Notes under the pieces: generated by a model
What the model was told of the DNA's origin: nothing
Database searches by the model: none
The model's input: only the letters and a program-made list of their open reading frames with translations
In this document: positions 57,498-64,000 of the stretch, one piece after another
Position numbering within the stretch: position 1 is the stretch's first letter
How the letters are laid out: each line of letters opens with the position of its first letter
Program-made: the position numbers and the translations under genes
Source: an uncultured bacterium
GTDB taxonomy: Bacteria > Bacillota_I > Bacilli_A > Acholeplasmatales > Anaeroplasmataceae
Direction: 5' to 3'
NCBI GenBank assembly: GCA_949293265.1
Contig: CASFCK010000001.1
Coordinates: forward strand, 62,001-126,000
Length of the DNA: 64,000 nucleotides

Positions 57498-57574
<77 letters not shown>

Positions 57575-57603: not shown

Positions 57604-57631
57604 TTGTTATTTAGAATTTAATTCGTATAAT
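57604..57631 (+). promoter_or_regulatory. Candidate promoter of a short hairpin transcript
   Basis: TTGTTA, 16 bases, TATAAT directly before the inverted repeat 57628-57682. It could drive a short RNA. Confidence 0.5.
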
Positions 57632-57689
57632 GTGTGGTTTAATGAAGCTTTCTACAAGAATTTAGCATTTTACTACACATTATTTTTTT
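57628..57689 (+). ncRNA. Candidate small RNA or recombination site: long-stem hairpin with T-run
   Basis: TAATGTGTGGT (57628-57638) pairs with ACTACACATTA (57672-57682), 11 pairs including one G-U, enclosing 33 bases; seven T follow. With the promoter just upstream this is a complete ~55-nt transcription unit ending in its own terminator. The same palindrome beside a tRNA and an integrase could instead be an attachment or excisionase site. No coding capacity. Confidence 0.4.
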
Positions 57690-57776
57690 ATACATTAAAA
57701 ATGTGAATTTATTTTATTTTACTTTTTTATCAAAAATTTCACTTTTTTTTACTTTTTTTAATATTTTTTTATATAA

Positions 57777-57812
57777 AAGTCACATTCGAAGTCACATTCG
57801 AAGTCACATTCG
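57777..57812 (+). repeat. Three tandem 12-bp repeats AAGTCACATTCG
   Basis: Three exact head-to-tail copies (57777-57788, 57789-57800, 57801-57812) in the leader of the integrase gene. Their spacing is close to one helical turn. They look like integrase arm-type sites or iterons for a regulator. The rest of 57690-57776 is low-complexity A/T sequence with no other feature seen. Confidence 0.85.
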
Positions 57813-57852: not shown

Positions 57853-57880
57853 TTGTCATATTTTTTTAGTAAACTATAAA
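57853..57880 (+). promoter_or_regulatory. Promoter of the integrase gene
   Basis: TTGTCA, 16 bases, TATAAA; start about 57887, close before the GGAGG ribosome site. The 12-bp repeats lie 40 bases upstream. Confidence 0.75.
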
Positions 57881-57905
57881 TTATTATATTTAAATGGAGG
57901 AAAAT

Positions 57906-59075
57906 ATGAACGAATGTATTAAAGGAATTTTTAAATTAAAAAATGGAAATTGGAAATGTGATAAAATTTATAACGGAGTTAGAATCACTAAAATTTGTTC
58001 AACAAAAAATGAAATTTTAACTTTTTTAAAACAAAAAATATTAGAAATTGATAATATGAAAAATGAAAAATTAGATTCTTTTTCAAAAGTTCCCACTTTA
58101 CAAGAAATATTTGACCTTTATAAAATTAGTCATAATTGGTCTTTAAACACTATTAAAAAAGGAAATGGTTATTTTAATACTTATTTTGATGATTTTAAAG
58201 ATAAACCAGTATCATATATAAATAATAATATTTTATTAAACTGGATTACTTCTATCAATAATTTAGTAAATACTGGTAAAATAAAAATTGAATATGCTAA
58301 CAAAATTTTAAGACTTATGAAAAATTTACTTAAAATAGCTTTTCAAAATGGCTTTATTTCACACAAAATTAATATAGATTTAATTAATTTATACAAAAAT
58401 ACAAATTCAATTAGTGAAAAAATTGAAAATAATTATTTGAATTATGATGAGTTTATTTTATTTTGTAATGAACTTTTAAAACTTAATTATAGAGAATGCA
58501 TTACGATGGATAAACGTGAATTTGTTTTTGTTTTAAAATTCTTATATTATACAGGAACAAGGATAAATGAGGCTAGAGCAGTCCAAGTTAAAGACTTAAT
58601 CACTTCAATCGATAAAAAAACTAAAAATAATATTTATTATGTTTTGATTAATAAACAGTTAGATGAAGATAAAAATGAAATAAAATATATTTTAAAAAAT
58701 GGTGATACAATAGGAAGAAAAGTCTATATTGAATCTAAAGTTTATAATGATTTAACAAATGATTTAAATTATTTTAATTTAAAAAATGATGATTTTATTT
58801 TCGATTTTTCTCATGAAAACAGGCCATACAACAGAAGGTCTATATCATATAATATGAAACAATTTATTGCTTATTTAAAAAATGCTAAAAGATTGCCTTC
58901 TTCTTTTCCCGATTATTTATCACCACATGGTTTTAGAAGATCGAACACTTTATATTTAAAACAACTTGGTGTATCGGTTGAACTTGCTGCTAAAATGCAA
59001 GGACATTCGGTATCAGTTATGCTTAATACTTATTCTAGAGTTGATAAAAACGAAGTAACTTCTATTTTTAAATAA
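57906..59075 (+). CDS. Phage/ICE-type tyrosine integrase
   Basis: 389 aa from ATG 57906 (after GGAGG; the ATG at 57894 is part of that site). The layout is of the Tn916/lambda class. Residues 1-45 are an arm-binding AP2-like domain (GIFKLKNGNWKCDKIYNG). Residues ~65-165 are the core-binding SAM-like domain. The catalytic domain has R219 (TGTRINEAR), H341 and R344 (SPHGFRRS), H367 (MQGHSVSVM) and nucleophile Y376 (LNTYSRV). All needed residues are present, so it looks active. It is orphaned: no excisionase, relaxase or phage genes follow. Confidence 0.93.
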   Translation: MNECIKGIFKLKNGNWKCDKIYNGVRITKICSTKNEILTFLKQKILEIDNMKNEKLDSFSKVPTLQEIFDLYKISHNWSLNTIKKGNGYFNTYFDDFKDKPVSYINNNILLNWITSINNLVNTGKIKIEYANKILRLMKNLLKIAFQNGFISHKINIDLINLYKNTNSISEKIENNYLNYDEFILFCNELLKLNYRECITMDKREFVFVLKFLYYTGTRINEARAVQVKDLITSIDKKTKNNIYYVLINKQLDEDKNEIKYILKNGDTIGRKVYIESKVYNDLTNDLNYFNLKNDDFIFDFSHENRPYNRRSISYNMKQFIAYLKNAKRLPSSFPDYLSPHGFRRSNTLYLKQLGVSVELAAKMQGHSVSVMLNTYSRVDKNEVTSIFK

Positions 59076-59135: not shown

Positions 59136-59328
59136 TTACTCATCTAAATATAAAATATAATAAAAATCTTTTTCTATAATTACTAATTTTTCAATTTCTT
59201 CTTCTTTTAATTTTAATTTTAAAAAATCAATTTGTCCTTGTTTAAAAAGAAAATCACATTCTCCTTTTCTTAAATTTCTTTTAACATCATCAATTCCACC
59301 TTCATCATACAATGTTCGTAAGCGTGTA
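59136..59328 (-). pseudogene. Remnant of a longer gene, about 63 codons
   Basis: On the minus strand an open stretch reads IITRLRTLYDEGGIDDVKRN... and ends ILYLDE-stop at 59136. Upstream of it in frame comes TAG, and no start codon with a ribosome site lies in between. The charged, helical C-terminal look resembles the tails of transposase-like or phage-related proteins, but I cannot name it. It fits debris of an inserted element beside the integrase. The rest of 59108-59425 shows no gene. Confidence 0.45.
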
Positions 59329-59425
59329 ATAATCTATTCTTTGAACTATGAACTTTCACATAACTCCTAATGTTATAAATCAAAAACATCCGACAAATAT
59401 CGTTAAAGTTTACAGCAATATTGAG

Positions 59426-59457
59426 TAAAAAATCCCGGCTATAAAAACCGAGATTTG
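59426..59457 (-). terminator. Terminator of the starch operon
   Basis: AATCTCGG / CCGGGATT stem (one G-U) with a T-run on the minus strand, just after the starch-binding lipoprotein gene. Confidence 0.8.
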
Positions 59458-59479
59458 TTTAAAGAGGTTATTTAAAGGA

Positions 59480-60790
59480 TTACTCTGTAACTGCTGTAAT
59501 AGTAAGAGATGGAGTTGAATCTAAATTAGATACAACAATTTGATATGTACCTGCTGTAAGAACAGTAATATTGCCATCGGCAGCTTTACTAAATGCAGCA
59601 CCTAATTCATCTGAACTAACTTCACCAGACCAACCTGCTTGAGCAATCTTAAATACATCGCCTTCTGCAAGAGGAACAGTGATTGTAGCTGTCATAGTTT
59701 CTTCATCAATAGCTAATTTATAAGCTTCTTCAAAAGTCCAATTAACAGTTCCAAATTTACCAACTATGTAAAACTCAGGTAGACCTAAGTCTACTTCAAC
59801 TGCTGTAAATACACCATCTTTGTAGTTACCATATGAAGCGGATAAGTCAGCCAATATAACAACACAGTTAGCGTCAGCTACTGCTGTAATGTTTTCAGAT
59901 TGTACGCCAGATTCTACACCATCGACTGTAACTTTATTATTTGCAATATATGTAGTAGCATCTTCAGGCACTTCTACACTATATATATTACAAGATTCAC
60001 CATTTACTTCTACTTCACCAACTTTAGTAGTAGCAACACCTGGCCATGTAGAATCGCCAAGTTTAGAACCCCAATAATGAATATTTAAAACATCCCAACC
60101 ATTTGTATCAACTACGTATAAAGTTATCATTTCAATTGGATCACTAGCTTCTGGTTTAGCTAATTCAGGATCATCAGCTTTAGCTTGATAAGATGTATAA
60201 GTAACTTCATATTTATTGTCAGAGTTTAGAACATCAAATCTTAACGCATTACGTTCTGGAGAATATGCAACATCTACAGTTTGAGATGAGCCATCATTAA
60301 TGATTATATTGTCAACACCTGCAGGCAATGTATAACCATATAAATGTTCTGATTCATTAACTAAAGTCATTTCAACACCTGGCCAAGCTACTGCATAGCT
60401 TGATTCTAAATTTTCGCCCCAATAATAGATATTTACTGTTTCAAAATCAGCTGGAACATATGCATATAATGCTGTAAAGTCTGTTGTTGCACCAAATGTA
60501 GGTGTTAACATAGGAATTTCTTCAGTTCCTTTATAACCACAAACTGTACAAGTGTGTTCTTTTAAACCTTTTTCATCTAATGTGGCTTCTTTTGTTACTT
60601 TCCATTCTCCCCACACATGGGCATCCCATCTAGTTTCTTCTCCACATTCTGTACAAACTTGACGATGTTTTGTTGCTTCACTTTCATAAATATAACTATG
60701 TTGATGTTCTTCTTCAGAACATGATGCTAATGCTAATACTGTACATAATGTAGTAAGTACTAACATTATTGTTTTAATAACATTTTTCAC
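59480..60790 (-). CDS. Starch-binding lipoprotein with three glucan-binding modules
   Basis: 436 aa, starts GTG after AGGAGGTAAATA. Lipobox LAS-C24. Residues ~30-92 carry two CxxC pairs (CTECG, CTVCG) in a His/Trp-rich spacer seen on other surface proteins of gut Firmicutes. Then come two CBM26-like modules (about 105-200 and 222-325), both showing xVNIYYWG/VLNIHYWG and a WPGV motif. A third module (338-436; EFYIVGKFGTVNWTFEEAYKL) resembles SusE/F-type starch-binding domains. No catalytic domain. It probably holds starch at the cell surface for the pullulanase encoded 59 bases upstream. Confidence 0.85.
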   Translation of the reverse strand: MKNVIKTIMLVLTTLCTVLALASCSEEEHQHSYIYESEATKHRQVCTECGEETRWDAHVWGEWKVTKEATLDEKGLKEHTCTVCGYKGTEEIPMLTPTFGATTDFTALYAYVPADFETVNIYYWGENLESSYAVAWPGVEMTLVNESEHLYGYTLPAGVDNIIINDGSSQTVDVAYSPERNALRFDVLNSDNKYEVTYTSYQAKADDPELAKPEASDPIEMITLYVVDTNGWDVLNIHYWGSKLGDSTWPGVATTKVGEVEVNGESCNIYSVEVPEDATTYIANNKVTVDGVESGVQSENITAVADANCVVILADLSASYGNYKDGVFTAVEVDLGLPEFYIVGKFGTVNWTFEEAYKLAIDEETMTATITVPLAEGDVFKIAQAGWSGEVSSDELGAAFSKAADGNITVLTAGTYQIVVSNLDSTPSLTITAVTE

Positions 60791-60849
60791 TATTTACCTC
60801 CTATTAATGTTATTATTTATTTTTAGACTTACTCACAAGTCTTAAGCCC

Positions 60850-63513
60850 TTATAAATCTTTATAAAGAATTAGAGTTTGATAATTACTAATAGTAGTTTC
60901 ATTTGTTAATTCAATATTTCCTGGTAAAGTATTTAAATAAATGCTATAACCTGTTAAATCTAATACTTTATCAGTAGCACTAACACCATTAGAATGAATA
61001 ATTAAATATTCTCTATTAGCACTATTATCTGTTAATTTATAATAAATCATTGAACCATCTTTATTAGTGTTAATTACTAATTCTTTTGCAGATAGACTAT
61101 CTAAACCAAATAGATTACTATTTTGTTTAATAGCTATTAATTTTTGATAATTTTCAAATACATCGCTATTTTTAATTTTTAACGCATAATTTAATTCATT
61201 AACTTTATAGCTTGCATTATATGAATTCTCATTGCCTTGTTTAGTTCTTAAGAATTCTTCACCAGCTAGCATAAATGAAATACCTTGAGATGTAAATACT
61301 ACTGAGTTTGCTAATACTGCCATTTTCTTTATTGTTGTTTCATCTTTTATGCCGGCTGCTTTAATTCTGTCATACAATGTATAATTATCATGACAAGTTA
61401 CATAATTTACACATTTTTCAACTTCTAAAGTCTTATTAGTGCTTAATATTAAACCAGTTAAACTGCTCTTAATATTCTTTACATCTGATGTAGAAACTTT
61501 AGAATTATTAGTTATCCAACCTTTTGAAGTTGCAGCATTTAGACCACCTTTTATTAAGGCATCGCGTATCTTATCGTTAAAACAGCCATAGCCTTCATAC
61601 TTGTTCATATTAGCTTGGCTTGCTTGCATACTAGATGATAAAGCTGATGTGCCACCAGTCCATGGTTCACCATAAACTGTAATAGCTTCATTAACATTTT
61701 CATGTAAGTTTTTAGCTAACTCATTCATTGTTTGTAAATCATGAACAGCCATTAAGTCAAATCTAAAGCCACCAAGTTTATATTCGCTAGCCCAAAACTC
61801 TGTTGAATCAACCATAAATTTACGATACATTGAACGTTCACTAGCTGTTTCATTACCACAACCACTACCATTAGAAGGTGAACCGTTACTATATCTAAAG
61901 TAATAGCCTGGCATTAAAACATCAAAGTTAGAACCACCTAATCCATTAACGTGGTTATAGACTACATCCATAATTATGTTAATTCCAGCTTCATTATAAG
62001 CCTTAACTAACTCTTTAAATTCTTTAATTCTTACATAACCATCTGATGGGTCAGATGAATAAGAACCTTCTAAGGTATTATAATTTAATGGATTATAACC
62101 CCAATTAAATACCATTGTGCTTTCTGTATTGGCTTGATCAAAGATTGGTAATAATTGAACTGCATTAACACCTAATTCTTTAATATGGTCAAAGCCTGTA
62201 CTTACTGTTATGCCATTTGAGCTTGTATAAGTTGTGCCTGTTTCGTAAAAGCCTTTAAATTTCTTAGCATTTTCACTACTACCACCCCAGGTAGAGCTAC
62301 TAGTTAGGTCAGATATATGAGTTTCATAAACTGTTAAGCTAGTTGATGCATAATTATGAACATTAATATTATCCCAGCCTTCAGGGTTTGTCTTACTAAA
62401 GTCAACAACCATACCTCTTAAACCATTTATGCCAGTTGATTTAGCATATGGGTCTACAACTTCACGATTAGAATATGTTGAATTAGTAACTACATATGTA
62501 TAATACTTACCCTCATTATCGCCATTTAAAACGTATTCAAAAACCCCATTTTCAATCTTTTTCATCGCATATTCTTGATAGTTATTATTACCACCAAGGC
62601 TAGAAGGAGTACCTGTATCATATATTCTTAAACTAATTTTTGAAGAAATAGGAGACCAAACTCTAAATGTTGTTTTTTCACTAGTATAAATAGCCCCAAG
62701 TTCGCCACTATATGTATATAATTCTTCAAATTCTTTGCTAGAATAGATAACTTGTTTATCGCACATCTTAGTTAATGTTTTACCAGATTTAAAAGTAACA
62801 TTTAAAATGTAGTCATCTAATAAGCTAGGCAATTCATTACCTAACTCATATATTACTCTTTTACCTGTGTTTGACGATAACATATCAGATGGAGTATTAC
62901 TGTCAAATAAAACTTCATTTCCTAATTTAATTTCATAACTTGCAAATTCTCTATTAGTCTGAAACCAAATAGAAAAGCCAGTTTTTGTATTATAAGCTAA
63001 TTCAAAATGTGAAATCATCTCAAGCAATTCTCCTTTGTCATTAATATAGATATTTGAATCACCATTTTTTAAATAAATATTATAATAACCATATTGGTCT
63101 CTTTCTAAGACACTAAAATCAACATATCGGTCCTCATCACCATCTTTAGAAGGCGAATCTGCCCAAGGCTTATTTTCTTTTACTATAAAACCTAGACCAC
63201 TGCTTTCAGCTGTTGGAAACTCAGCCCAAGAAAATCTTGCAACTAAGCCATAACTATCTGTTTCTGTAAACTGATAATCAGCACCATCTTTTGTGTCTTC
63301 CCATAACCATAAATTCCAAGTATACTCACCATTTGTCTTTGTAGTTATATCATAATGAATCGCAAAACCTAAGTTTTTATCAGTTATAGGCAAATTTGGG
63401 TCATTGTTTTCTTCTTCATTTGGCTTTGGGTCTTGGTCTATAGTCTTGTTATTACAAGCTACAATTGTTAAAGAAAGGATGAACAATAATAATATATTTA
63501 ATATTTTTTTCAT
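60850..63513 (-). CDS. Lipoprotein type I pullulanase (GH13)
   Basis: 887 aa. Lipobox IVA-C20. Residues ~47-160 are a CBM41 alpha-glucan-binding domain (GFAIHYDI..., WNLWLWED). A CBM48-like domain lies at ~275-360. The GH13 barrel carries VFNWGYNP (469-475), the YNWGY signature of type I pullulanases, DVVYNH (516-521), nucleophile D586 (GFRFD), acid E616 (YGEPW) and transition-state D709 (CHDN). It cuts alpha-1,6 branches of pullulan, amylopectin or glycogen outside the cell. It follows the partial gene by 10 bases with an AAGGGG ribosome site, in one operon with the starch-binding lipoprotein. Confidence 0.93.
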   Translation of the reverse strand: MKKILNILLLFILSLTIVACNNKTIDQDPKPNEEENNDPNLPITDKNLGFAIHYDITTKTNGEYTWNLWLWEDTKDGADYQFTETDSYGLVARFSWAEFPTAESSGLGFIVKENKPWADSPSKDGDEDRYVDFSVLERDQYGYYNIYLKNGDSNIYINDKGELLEMISHFELAYNTKTGFSIWFQTNREFASYEIKLGNEVLFDSNTPSDMLSSNTGKRVIYELGNELPSLLDDYILNVTFKSGKTLTKMCDKQVIYSSKEFEELYTYSGELGAIYTSEKTTFRVWSPISSKISLRIYDTGTPSSLGGNNNYQEYAMKKIENGVFEYVLNGDNEGKYYTYVVTNSTYSNREVVDPYAKSTGINGLRGMVVDFSKTNPEGWDNINVHNYASTSLTVYETHISDLTSSSTWGGSSENAKKFKGFYETGTTYTSSNGITVSTGFDHIKELGVNAVQLLPIFDQANTESTMVFNWGYNPLNYNTLEGSYSSDPSDGYVRIKEFKELVKAYNEAGINIIMDVVYNHVNGLGGSNFDVLMPGYYFRYSNGSPSNGSGCGNETASERSMYRKFMVDSTEFWASEYKLGGFRFDLMAVHDLQTMNELAKNLHENVNEAITVYGEPWTGGTSALSSSMQASQANMNKYEGYGCFNDKIRDALIKGGLNAATSKGWITNNSKVSTSDVKNIKSSLTGLILSTNKTLEVEKCVNYVTCHDNYTLYDRIKAAGIKDETTIKKMAVLANSVVFTSQGISFMLAGEEFLRTKQGNENSYNASYKVNELNYALKIKNSDVFENYQKLIAIKQNSNLFGLDSLSAKELVINTNKDGSMIYYKLTDNSANREYLIIHSNGVSATDKVLDLTGYSIYLNTLPGNIELTNETTISNYQTLILYKDL

Positions 63514-63523
63514 TATTTTCCCC

Positions 63524-64000
63524 TTATAGATTTATTAATTTGTTAATTGGAATATTATATTCACATTCGATAGTTGTTAGAATTTCCATACTATAATCTC
63601 TTGTAAAAGCTCTAGATGTTAAACTTATAATCATGCCATAACGATCTACTGTAAAACTGTGCATATTAATTAGTTCTTTACCATCTTCTGTTTCACTTTT
63701 AGTATTTACGCTATAAGTGAGTTCTGTTTCATCATCATTTAATGAAAAGAATTGATAATAATTTGCTACATTAGCTATAACATAATCACCATAGTAAACC
63801 CCTCCACTATGGTAATTAGATGTTACATCTGAATAGAAAAAACTTTTAACTGAATCAGTAATATCTTCTTCACTATAAGAAACATTATCTAATATTCCGT
63901 CTGTTTTTTGGTAGACTACTACGTTATTCGCTTCGTCAAAATAAGATAGGATTTCTTGTTGGTAAAAATTATAATCATCTTTGTCATTACCAAAATAACT
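63524..64000 (-). CDS. C-terminal part of an unrecognised protein upstream of the pullulanase
   Basis: 158 codons, open at the right edge, ending ...IPINKLINL-stop at 63524. No family recognised. The visible part is acidic and beta-rich with many Tyr and Asp (DDYNFYQQEILSYFDEANN, SKSFFYSD-like stretches), similar in feel to surface lipoprotein domains. It is translated just before the pullulanase (10-base gap) and so belongs to the starch operon. Without its start I cannot say whether it is secreted. Confidence 0.65.
   Translation of the reverse strand, partial: SYFGNDKDDYNFYQQEILSYFDEANNVVVYQKTDGILDNVSYSEEDITDSVKSFFYSDVTSNYHSGGVYYGDYVIANVANYYQFFSLNDDETELTYSVNTKSETEDGKELINMHSFTVDRYGMIISLTSRAFTRDYSMEILTTIECEYNIPINKLINL

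Follow-up and report, generated by a model that had tools for sequence, protein, structure and literature searches.

Three identical 12-bp direct repeats between a tRNA-Arg gene and a tyrosine integrase gene in the Acholeplasmatales: candidate arm-type sites at one end of a probable degenerate integrative element

Three copies of the 12-bp sequence AAGTCACATTCG stand between a tRNA-Arg gene and a tyrosine integrase gene in a genome of the order Acholeplasmatales, and the array is a further example of a known arrangement in which repeats accompany the integrase at the end of a worn element. It is best explained as a set of protein-binding sites in an att arm, most likely the arm-type sites of the integrase, a reading to which we assign a probability of about 0.5. 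A short tandem sequence has been kept in two genera while all around it differs, which argues for a protein-binding array; arm-type sites are the first choice owing to the position of the array between the element edge and the integrase promoter, and to the predicted N-terminal fold of the integrase. The estimate was lowered to its present value because Rfam failed to recognise as a tRNA the fragment that lies near the related block in the second genus (G032).

In the Acholeplasmatales, the repeats are candidates for the recombination sites of an integrase subfamily that is rare, three close members having been found. We know of no att system that has been studied in this order. The 16 papers containing the 12-mer or its complement were unrelated by title, and among the matches listed for integrase islands or starch gene transfer in the Acholeplasmatales, 10 of 1,835, none named the order. 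The region as a whole combines an integrase-marked site near tRNA-Arg with a starch-use cassette that is framed by IS ends and has seemingly spread between species.

The repeat array and its near copy in another genus

The array is exactly what the first-pass annotation had described at 57777-57812: three perfect 12-bp copies, head-to-tail, identical and with zero spacer between them (Table 1). In the window, by which we mean the whole 64,000-nt stretch of DNA that was analysed, these three copies are the only matches to the 12-mer with fewer than two mismatches. No exact copy occurs outside the array in the 1.59-Mb assembly of the own genome, where a forward search allowing up to one mismatch gives seven matches, namely the three of the array and four singles on other contigs, the latter to be set against three matches for a reversed control pattern. 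The longest self-match run at lags of 9-15 in the 64 kb measures 24 bases, as against 9-13 in 20 Markov-1 simulations of the same length. A scan for perfect tandem arrays (units of 7-24 bp, at least 30 nt, about 2.9 copies or more) over the 267,705 bases fetched, in 12 sequences from the own genome and its relatives, returned only this array and a 9-bp array in the sister genome G006. The perfection of the array is far beyond chance. It also differs from its surroundings in composition, with a G+C content of 42% inside and 15% on either side, which bears out the remark that it stands out by its C and G.

Table 1. Features around the repeat array. Positions are those of the window; extended coordinates are positions past 64000 on the continuation of the same contig.
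Feature	Position	Strand	Basis or remark
tRNA-Arg (anticodon TCT)	57498..57574	+	ARAGORN; Rfam tRNA 70.1 bits
Long AT-rich hairpin, then T run	57627..57683	+	Fold z-score -5.28; G006 alignment
T/A-rich imperfect direct repeat, left copy	57746..57778	.	Local alignment; right copy at 79040-79073 (extended)
31-bp block common to G032, 30/31 identical	57771..57801	.	Alignment
Repeat copy 1, AAGTCACATTCG	57777..57788	+	Pattern match
Repeat copy 2, AAGTCACATTCG	57789..57800	+	Pattern match
Repeat copy 3, AAGTCACATTCG	57801..57812	+	Pattern match
Weak sigma-70-like promoter match (TTGTCA, 18 nt, TAAATT)	57853..57882	+	Consensus scan, 9 of 12
Tyrosine integrase	57906..59075	+	PF00589 1.1e-11; PHROG integrase 1.1e-29; alignment; models
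Short frame, possibly a gene remnant	59136..59312	-	No Pfam match; weak PHROG, function unknown, E 0.086
GTAAGCGTGTAAT, IS66-like end, left cassette edge	59318..59330	+	Motif
Start of starch/maltodextrin cassette	59324..64000	.	Continues to about 78870 (extended; L046:1-14870)

B-DNA has about 10.5 bp per helical turn, so that a 12-bp unit spans about 1.14 turns and neighbouring copies are rotated by about 50 degrees. The proposal that a period near one helical turn puts the protein on one face of the DNA therefore has to be given up in its strict form. The pitch also bears on an alternative in which the array holds the sites of an excisionase (RDF) or of another regulator encoded by the element, a protein that would bend att DNA or act on the integrase promoter and whose gene is lost, unrecognised or elsewhere. 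RDF sites in att regions are described as head-to-tail direct repeats of about one helical turn, and control of an integrase promoter by an RDF is also on record (PMC7498355, PMC11963761); the near copy in G032 described below, which lies near other element-like genes, would fit a shared regulator as well. The RDF sites described in PMC7498355, however, have a pitch of 10-11 bp, which the 12-bp pitch of the array fits less well, and no excisionase-like frame was seen by eye in the interval between the integrase and the cassette. Excisionase sites, which the first-pass annotation had offered as a second option, are considered unlikely, although they are the strongest competitor of the arm-site reading.

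When 160 genomes of the order were searched for the double 12-mer with up to three mismatches, it turned up in two: the own genome and G032, which belongs to another genus and carries one mismatch. The reversed control occurs in none of the 160. Calculated from the base composition for a search space taken as 231 Mb, the chance expectation for the double 12-mer is 7e-5 with up to one mismatch and 0.07 with up to three. The block common to both genomes is made up of an ATATAA lead, copies 1 and 2 and the first base of copy 3; the similarity ends on both sides, the flanks are unrelated and the G032 copy is non-coding. At a distance of 67 bp from this copy is a segment of 64 nt with 77% identity to the 3' part of a tRNA-Arg gene. 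The segment is called tRNA-like from this alignment only, since neither ARAGORN nor Rfam (E 0.1) reports a tRNA there; were it an att remnant, an intact counterpart would be expected. One side of the G032 block has host-like frames and the other has genes without a confident family. The G032 assembly of about 380 contigs gave zero matches to the own integrase, and no integrase-like frame was seen on the 9.6-kb contig that holds the block.

The occurrence of the block at two loci with unrelated-looking neighbours, one of them in a genome without an integrase match, would suit a DNA-binding protein of the host, acting at attachment regions or at promoters. More sites would be expected of such a regulator, though: the double site is found in 2 of 160 genomes, and single sites in the own genome are about as frequent as matches to the control, which makes a host factor very unlikely. 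Among viral sequences, the exact double 12-mer with a gap of 0-12 bp was found in no stretch of the collection. A degenerate pattern picked up four viral loci that were set aside: three (L117-L119) lie in long runs of similar repeats that look by eye like repetitive coding DNA, and at the fourth (L120) the match falls inside an ORF. ARAGORN found no tRNA at any of the four.

The element edges, the leader and the neighbouring cassette

Sister genome G006 is 91-93% identical to the window leftward up to 57766, where homology stops, and it resumes at 79040 in extended coordinates with 90-97% identity onward; the 21.3 kb between are absent there. The array therefore starts 11 bp inside a presence/absence region; for the block that is also present in G032, the distance from the end of G006 homology is 5 bp. 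Repeated short sites are thus found near an integrase gene and at the edge of a region of variable presence, an edge that would be an att end. At the site without the 21.3 kb (L038:6973-7002), G006 has a tandem array with a 9-bp unit, AAAAAGTGA x 3.3, whose sequence is unrelated.

As the sister genome holds a different short tandem array at the same place, the site may be prone to slippage, and the array could be a slippage-born tandem repeat without function, which would explain why its copies are identical and abutting. Against this stands the two-copy version in another genus, which has one substitution and the same ATATAA lead within otherwise unrelated flanks, and we see little chance that slippage is the whole explanation. 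The three identical abutting copies could nevertheless be in part the product of recent slippage.

The T/A-rich imperfect direct repeat that occurs at both edges possibly represents attL/attR remnants; it is suggestive only, as one other place in 124 kb scores higher (39 vs 37). At the right edge a degraded IS21-like end abuts host DNA, and no second repeat array was found there. Complete-looking copies of this IS21-like end are present in four of the eight genomes of the genus, one of them beside a frame with an rve domain. IS21 ends contain repeats, and with IS21-like and IS66-like ends around the region the array could conceivably be part of an IS or transposon end and not of an integrase element. 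Yet the left edge has no recognisable IS tip, and adjacent near-copy pairs were found in none of the 12 IS21-like loci fetched and in none of the four other cassette copies, so that such an origin is highly improbable.

A tRNA gene followed by an integrase, in a region missing from the same site in G006, is the layout of an island. It was not filed as a tRNA-integrated island, because no second copy of the tRNA-Arg 3' end (25-mer, up to three mismatches) exists in the assembly. The gap between the tRNA-Arg gene and the integrase ATG at 57906 is 331 bp, with 202 bp from the end of the tRNA gene (57574) to the array. Within it, the hairpin at 57627-57683 is probably the terminator of the tRNA-Arg gene, and it lies outside the presence/absence region since its sequence is common to G006. 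Its outer stem has 12 pairs and is kept in G006, the differences lying mainly in the loop. From the end of the array to the likely integrase start, which is preceded by GGAGG at 57896-57900, there are 93 bp. The array had been placed just upstream of the integrase promoter; the candidate for this promoter, at 57853-57882, is a weak match, and sigma-70-like matches are not clearly commoner than in shuffled sequence (five found, shuffle mean 3.5, sd 2.1).

Beyond the integrase lies a starch/maltodextrin cassette with genes for a CBM26 protein, a pullulanase, an amylase, ABC transporter parts, a phosphorylase, GH77 and a LacI regulator. Its left edge carries GTAAGCGTGTAAT, which we take to be an IS66-like end motif; IS66-like ends occur at the cassette edges in the own genome (G000), G002 and G006, and a TnpB_IS66 gene adjoins the copy in G006. 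The cassette is 97.9-98.8% identical over 19.3-19.6 kb to those of G002, G004 and G006 and 98.7% identical over 6.5 kb to that of G003, whose contig begins within the cassette, and a 3.8-kb piece is 99-100% identical in five of the eight genomes of the genus, own included. Its flanks have 76-80% identity to G002 and 90-97% to G006. The cassette of about 19.4 kb looks like a recent transfer between species, misassembled metagenome bins being the alternative. In G002 it follows the same tRNA-Arg with no array or integrase between, and in G006 it is located elsewhere, near frames that by eye read like ribosomal-protein and RNA-polymerase genes. The stretches fetched around the four other cassette copies contain neither the 12-mer (up to one mismatch) nor DNA homologous to the integrase. 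An early idea, in which the starch genes moved as a single unit with the integrase and the array, was dropped for this reason, and the cassette is probably not part of the integrase/repeat unit. The cassette genes that were searched against Pfam showed no transfer genes.

The integrase, its relatives and their leaders

Although 57906 is the likely start, reading of the integrase frame could also begin at 57894. The residues R, H, R, H and Y, which we take to be the positions usually called catalytic, are invariant in all three aligned integrases, own included. The full-length model is poor, with a mean pLDDT of 54.7, but the best 23 rows for its residues 65-170 are all integrase chains, among which lambda Int and Tn1549 Int have Z values of about 11.5, and this part is a predicted lambda-like core-binding domain. 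A separate model of residues 1-66 has three strands and a long helix, with pLDDT of about 87-91 for residues 11-50. It resembles the N-domain of Tn916 Int (1bb8; Z 4.0, rmsd 2.1, 45 residues), the AP2 domain 1gcc (Z 3.6, other AP2 domains lower) and the lambda Int N-domain (1kjk; Z 2.7). Ten unrelated chains outrank 1bb8, and Z 5 was reached by six of 998 chains, all of which look unrelated. Foldseek gave zero matches at E 0.001 for this model, the top one being an AP2 domain at E 0.25, and Pfam matched no family to the N-terminal segment. For the AP2-like N-terminus that had been proposed, the predicted three strands and helix are in favour, while the fold scores are modest and exceeded by unrelated chains.

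Relatives of the integrase are present in seven of the 160 genomes of the order (own included), the only close ones being those of G002 (40-43% identity) and G145 (35%). A sample of the class at E 1e-20 gave two genomes with relatives among 395, the own genome and G002. Among genome contigs a first scan found none and a second scan found two loci, which are the G002 and G145 contigs. No relative was confirmed in viral contigs, none was found in phages, and plasmids gave two weak records. At the DNA level the leader has distant matches in phages (164 records) and in plasmids (149 records); none extends beyond part of this AT-rich sequence, and they carry no weight here.

The G002 relative with 43% identity (L022, G002:C22:12000-26381) adjoins genes that by eye read like a rhamnose-use cluster, and its N-terminus has been lost at an IS21-like end close to the edge of the contig. 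In G145 the relative (L052:9752-10921) stands alone between genes reading by eye like yqeY and purC, and a 13-bp inverted repeat, instead of direct repeats, reaches the integrase start codon. At this insertion the sequence of relatives becomes homologous, at best, 52 bp upstream of the integrase start. The G145 gene is complete, and its 126-bp leader has no 12-bp repeat array. The expectation that the same 12-mer would be found beside homologous integrases thus fails in the only case that can be judged, the start of the G002 gene being cut; arm sites can, on the other hand, diverge at the distance that 35% identity represents.

The order has seven Arm-DNA-bind_4 loci, of which five provided 350-bp leaders for comparison (L089, L090, L091, L093 and L095); L092, where no ORF was recognised, and L094, which has only a neighbouring ORF, were left out. 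Tandem repeats of 9-14 bp in three copies occur in none of the five leaders. One further 12-bp array in the own genome (L013, 4.2 copies) lies upstream of an integrase frame; it appears by eye to be coding (NEPI) and was not counted. Since the five control leaders lack such arrays and that of L013 appears coding, arrays of this kind do not generally go with integrases here.

Candidate function and comparison with known systems

In the preferred reading, a degenerate integrative element lies beside tRNA-Arg, and the array belongs to the att arm at its left end. Each 12-mer would be an arm-type site for the N-terminal domain, occupied by one molecule apiece of the protein that we infer to be the adjacent integrase. 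The catalytic part of the integrase would bind a putative att core and, together with arm binding, build the recombination complex. Integrase bound there would at the same time reduce expression of its own gene, given that the array sits between the edge of the element and the integrase promoter; such self-repression would be a by-product. The earlier interpretation as arm sites is partly supported, by the edge position, the predicted N-terminal fold and the near copy in G032, and it finds no backing in conservation beside relatives. A shared third factor is possible given the G145 leader without an array, G032 without a related integrase and the weak fold scores. A further reading, which we regard as quite unlikely, is that the 31-bp block is either a portable att-arm module common to elements with unrelated integrases and genes or a site for a common factor acting in trans, the same arm sites beside tRNA-Arg genes thus serving various integrative elements of these bacteria.

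Arm-type sites at integrase genes are known or proposed in several systems. The 12-mer shares AGTCAC with one annotated Int site of lambda; this likeness has zero weight, as the hexamer occurs once more in the same 2.5-kb lambda stretch. The Tn916/Tn1549 family is approached through the protein models, the predicted N-domain resembling 1bb8 and the predicted core-binding domain resembling Tn1549 Int, and it differs in that the cassette genes given to Pfam include no recognisable transfer genes. Tn916 has DR-2 repeats. The AT-rich motif of the Tn916-type target, as given in PMC12084037, is found at the left edge with 1-2 mismatches; it was rejected as uninformative, because the window has 147 matches to it where 145 are expected.

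ICEMlSym of R7A has five arm sites in attP (P1-P5) with a 10-bp consensus and a known RDF, and its IntS lowers the activity of its own promoter by about a quarter (PMC11963761). Multiple short arm sites and an intS immediately downstream of attL recall the arrangement described here, whereas the window has three repeats in place of five sites and no RDF recognised by eye between the integrase and the cassette. Prophages of Oenococcus oeni are comparable in their low-GC Gram-positive host and in having short direct repeats beside tRNA sites, repeats in the att arms that have been proposed as sites for the integrase N-terminus (PMC8074189). Their repeats extend over both arms, in contrast to the one contiguous array of three on one side found here, the other arm of which would be lost or unrecognised.

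In KplE1, attL overlaps the intS promoter after argW and intS is self-repressed (PMC2951348). The KplE1 sites were experimentally tested, whereas the three identical contiguous repeats described here are known from sequence; both nevertheless have a tRNA gene followed by an integrase in the same direction, and in the KplE1 interval arm-type sites and the integrase promoter overlap.
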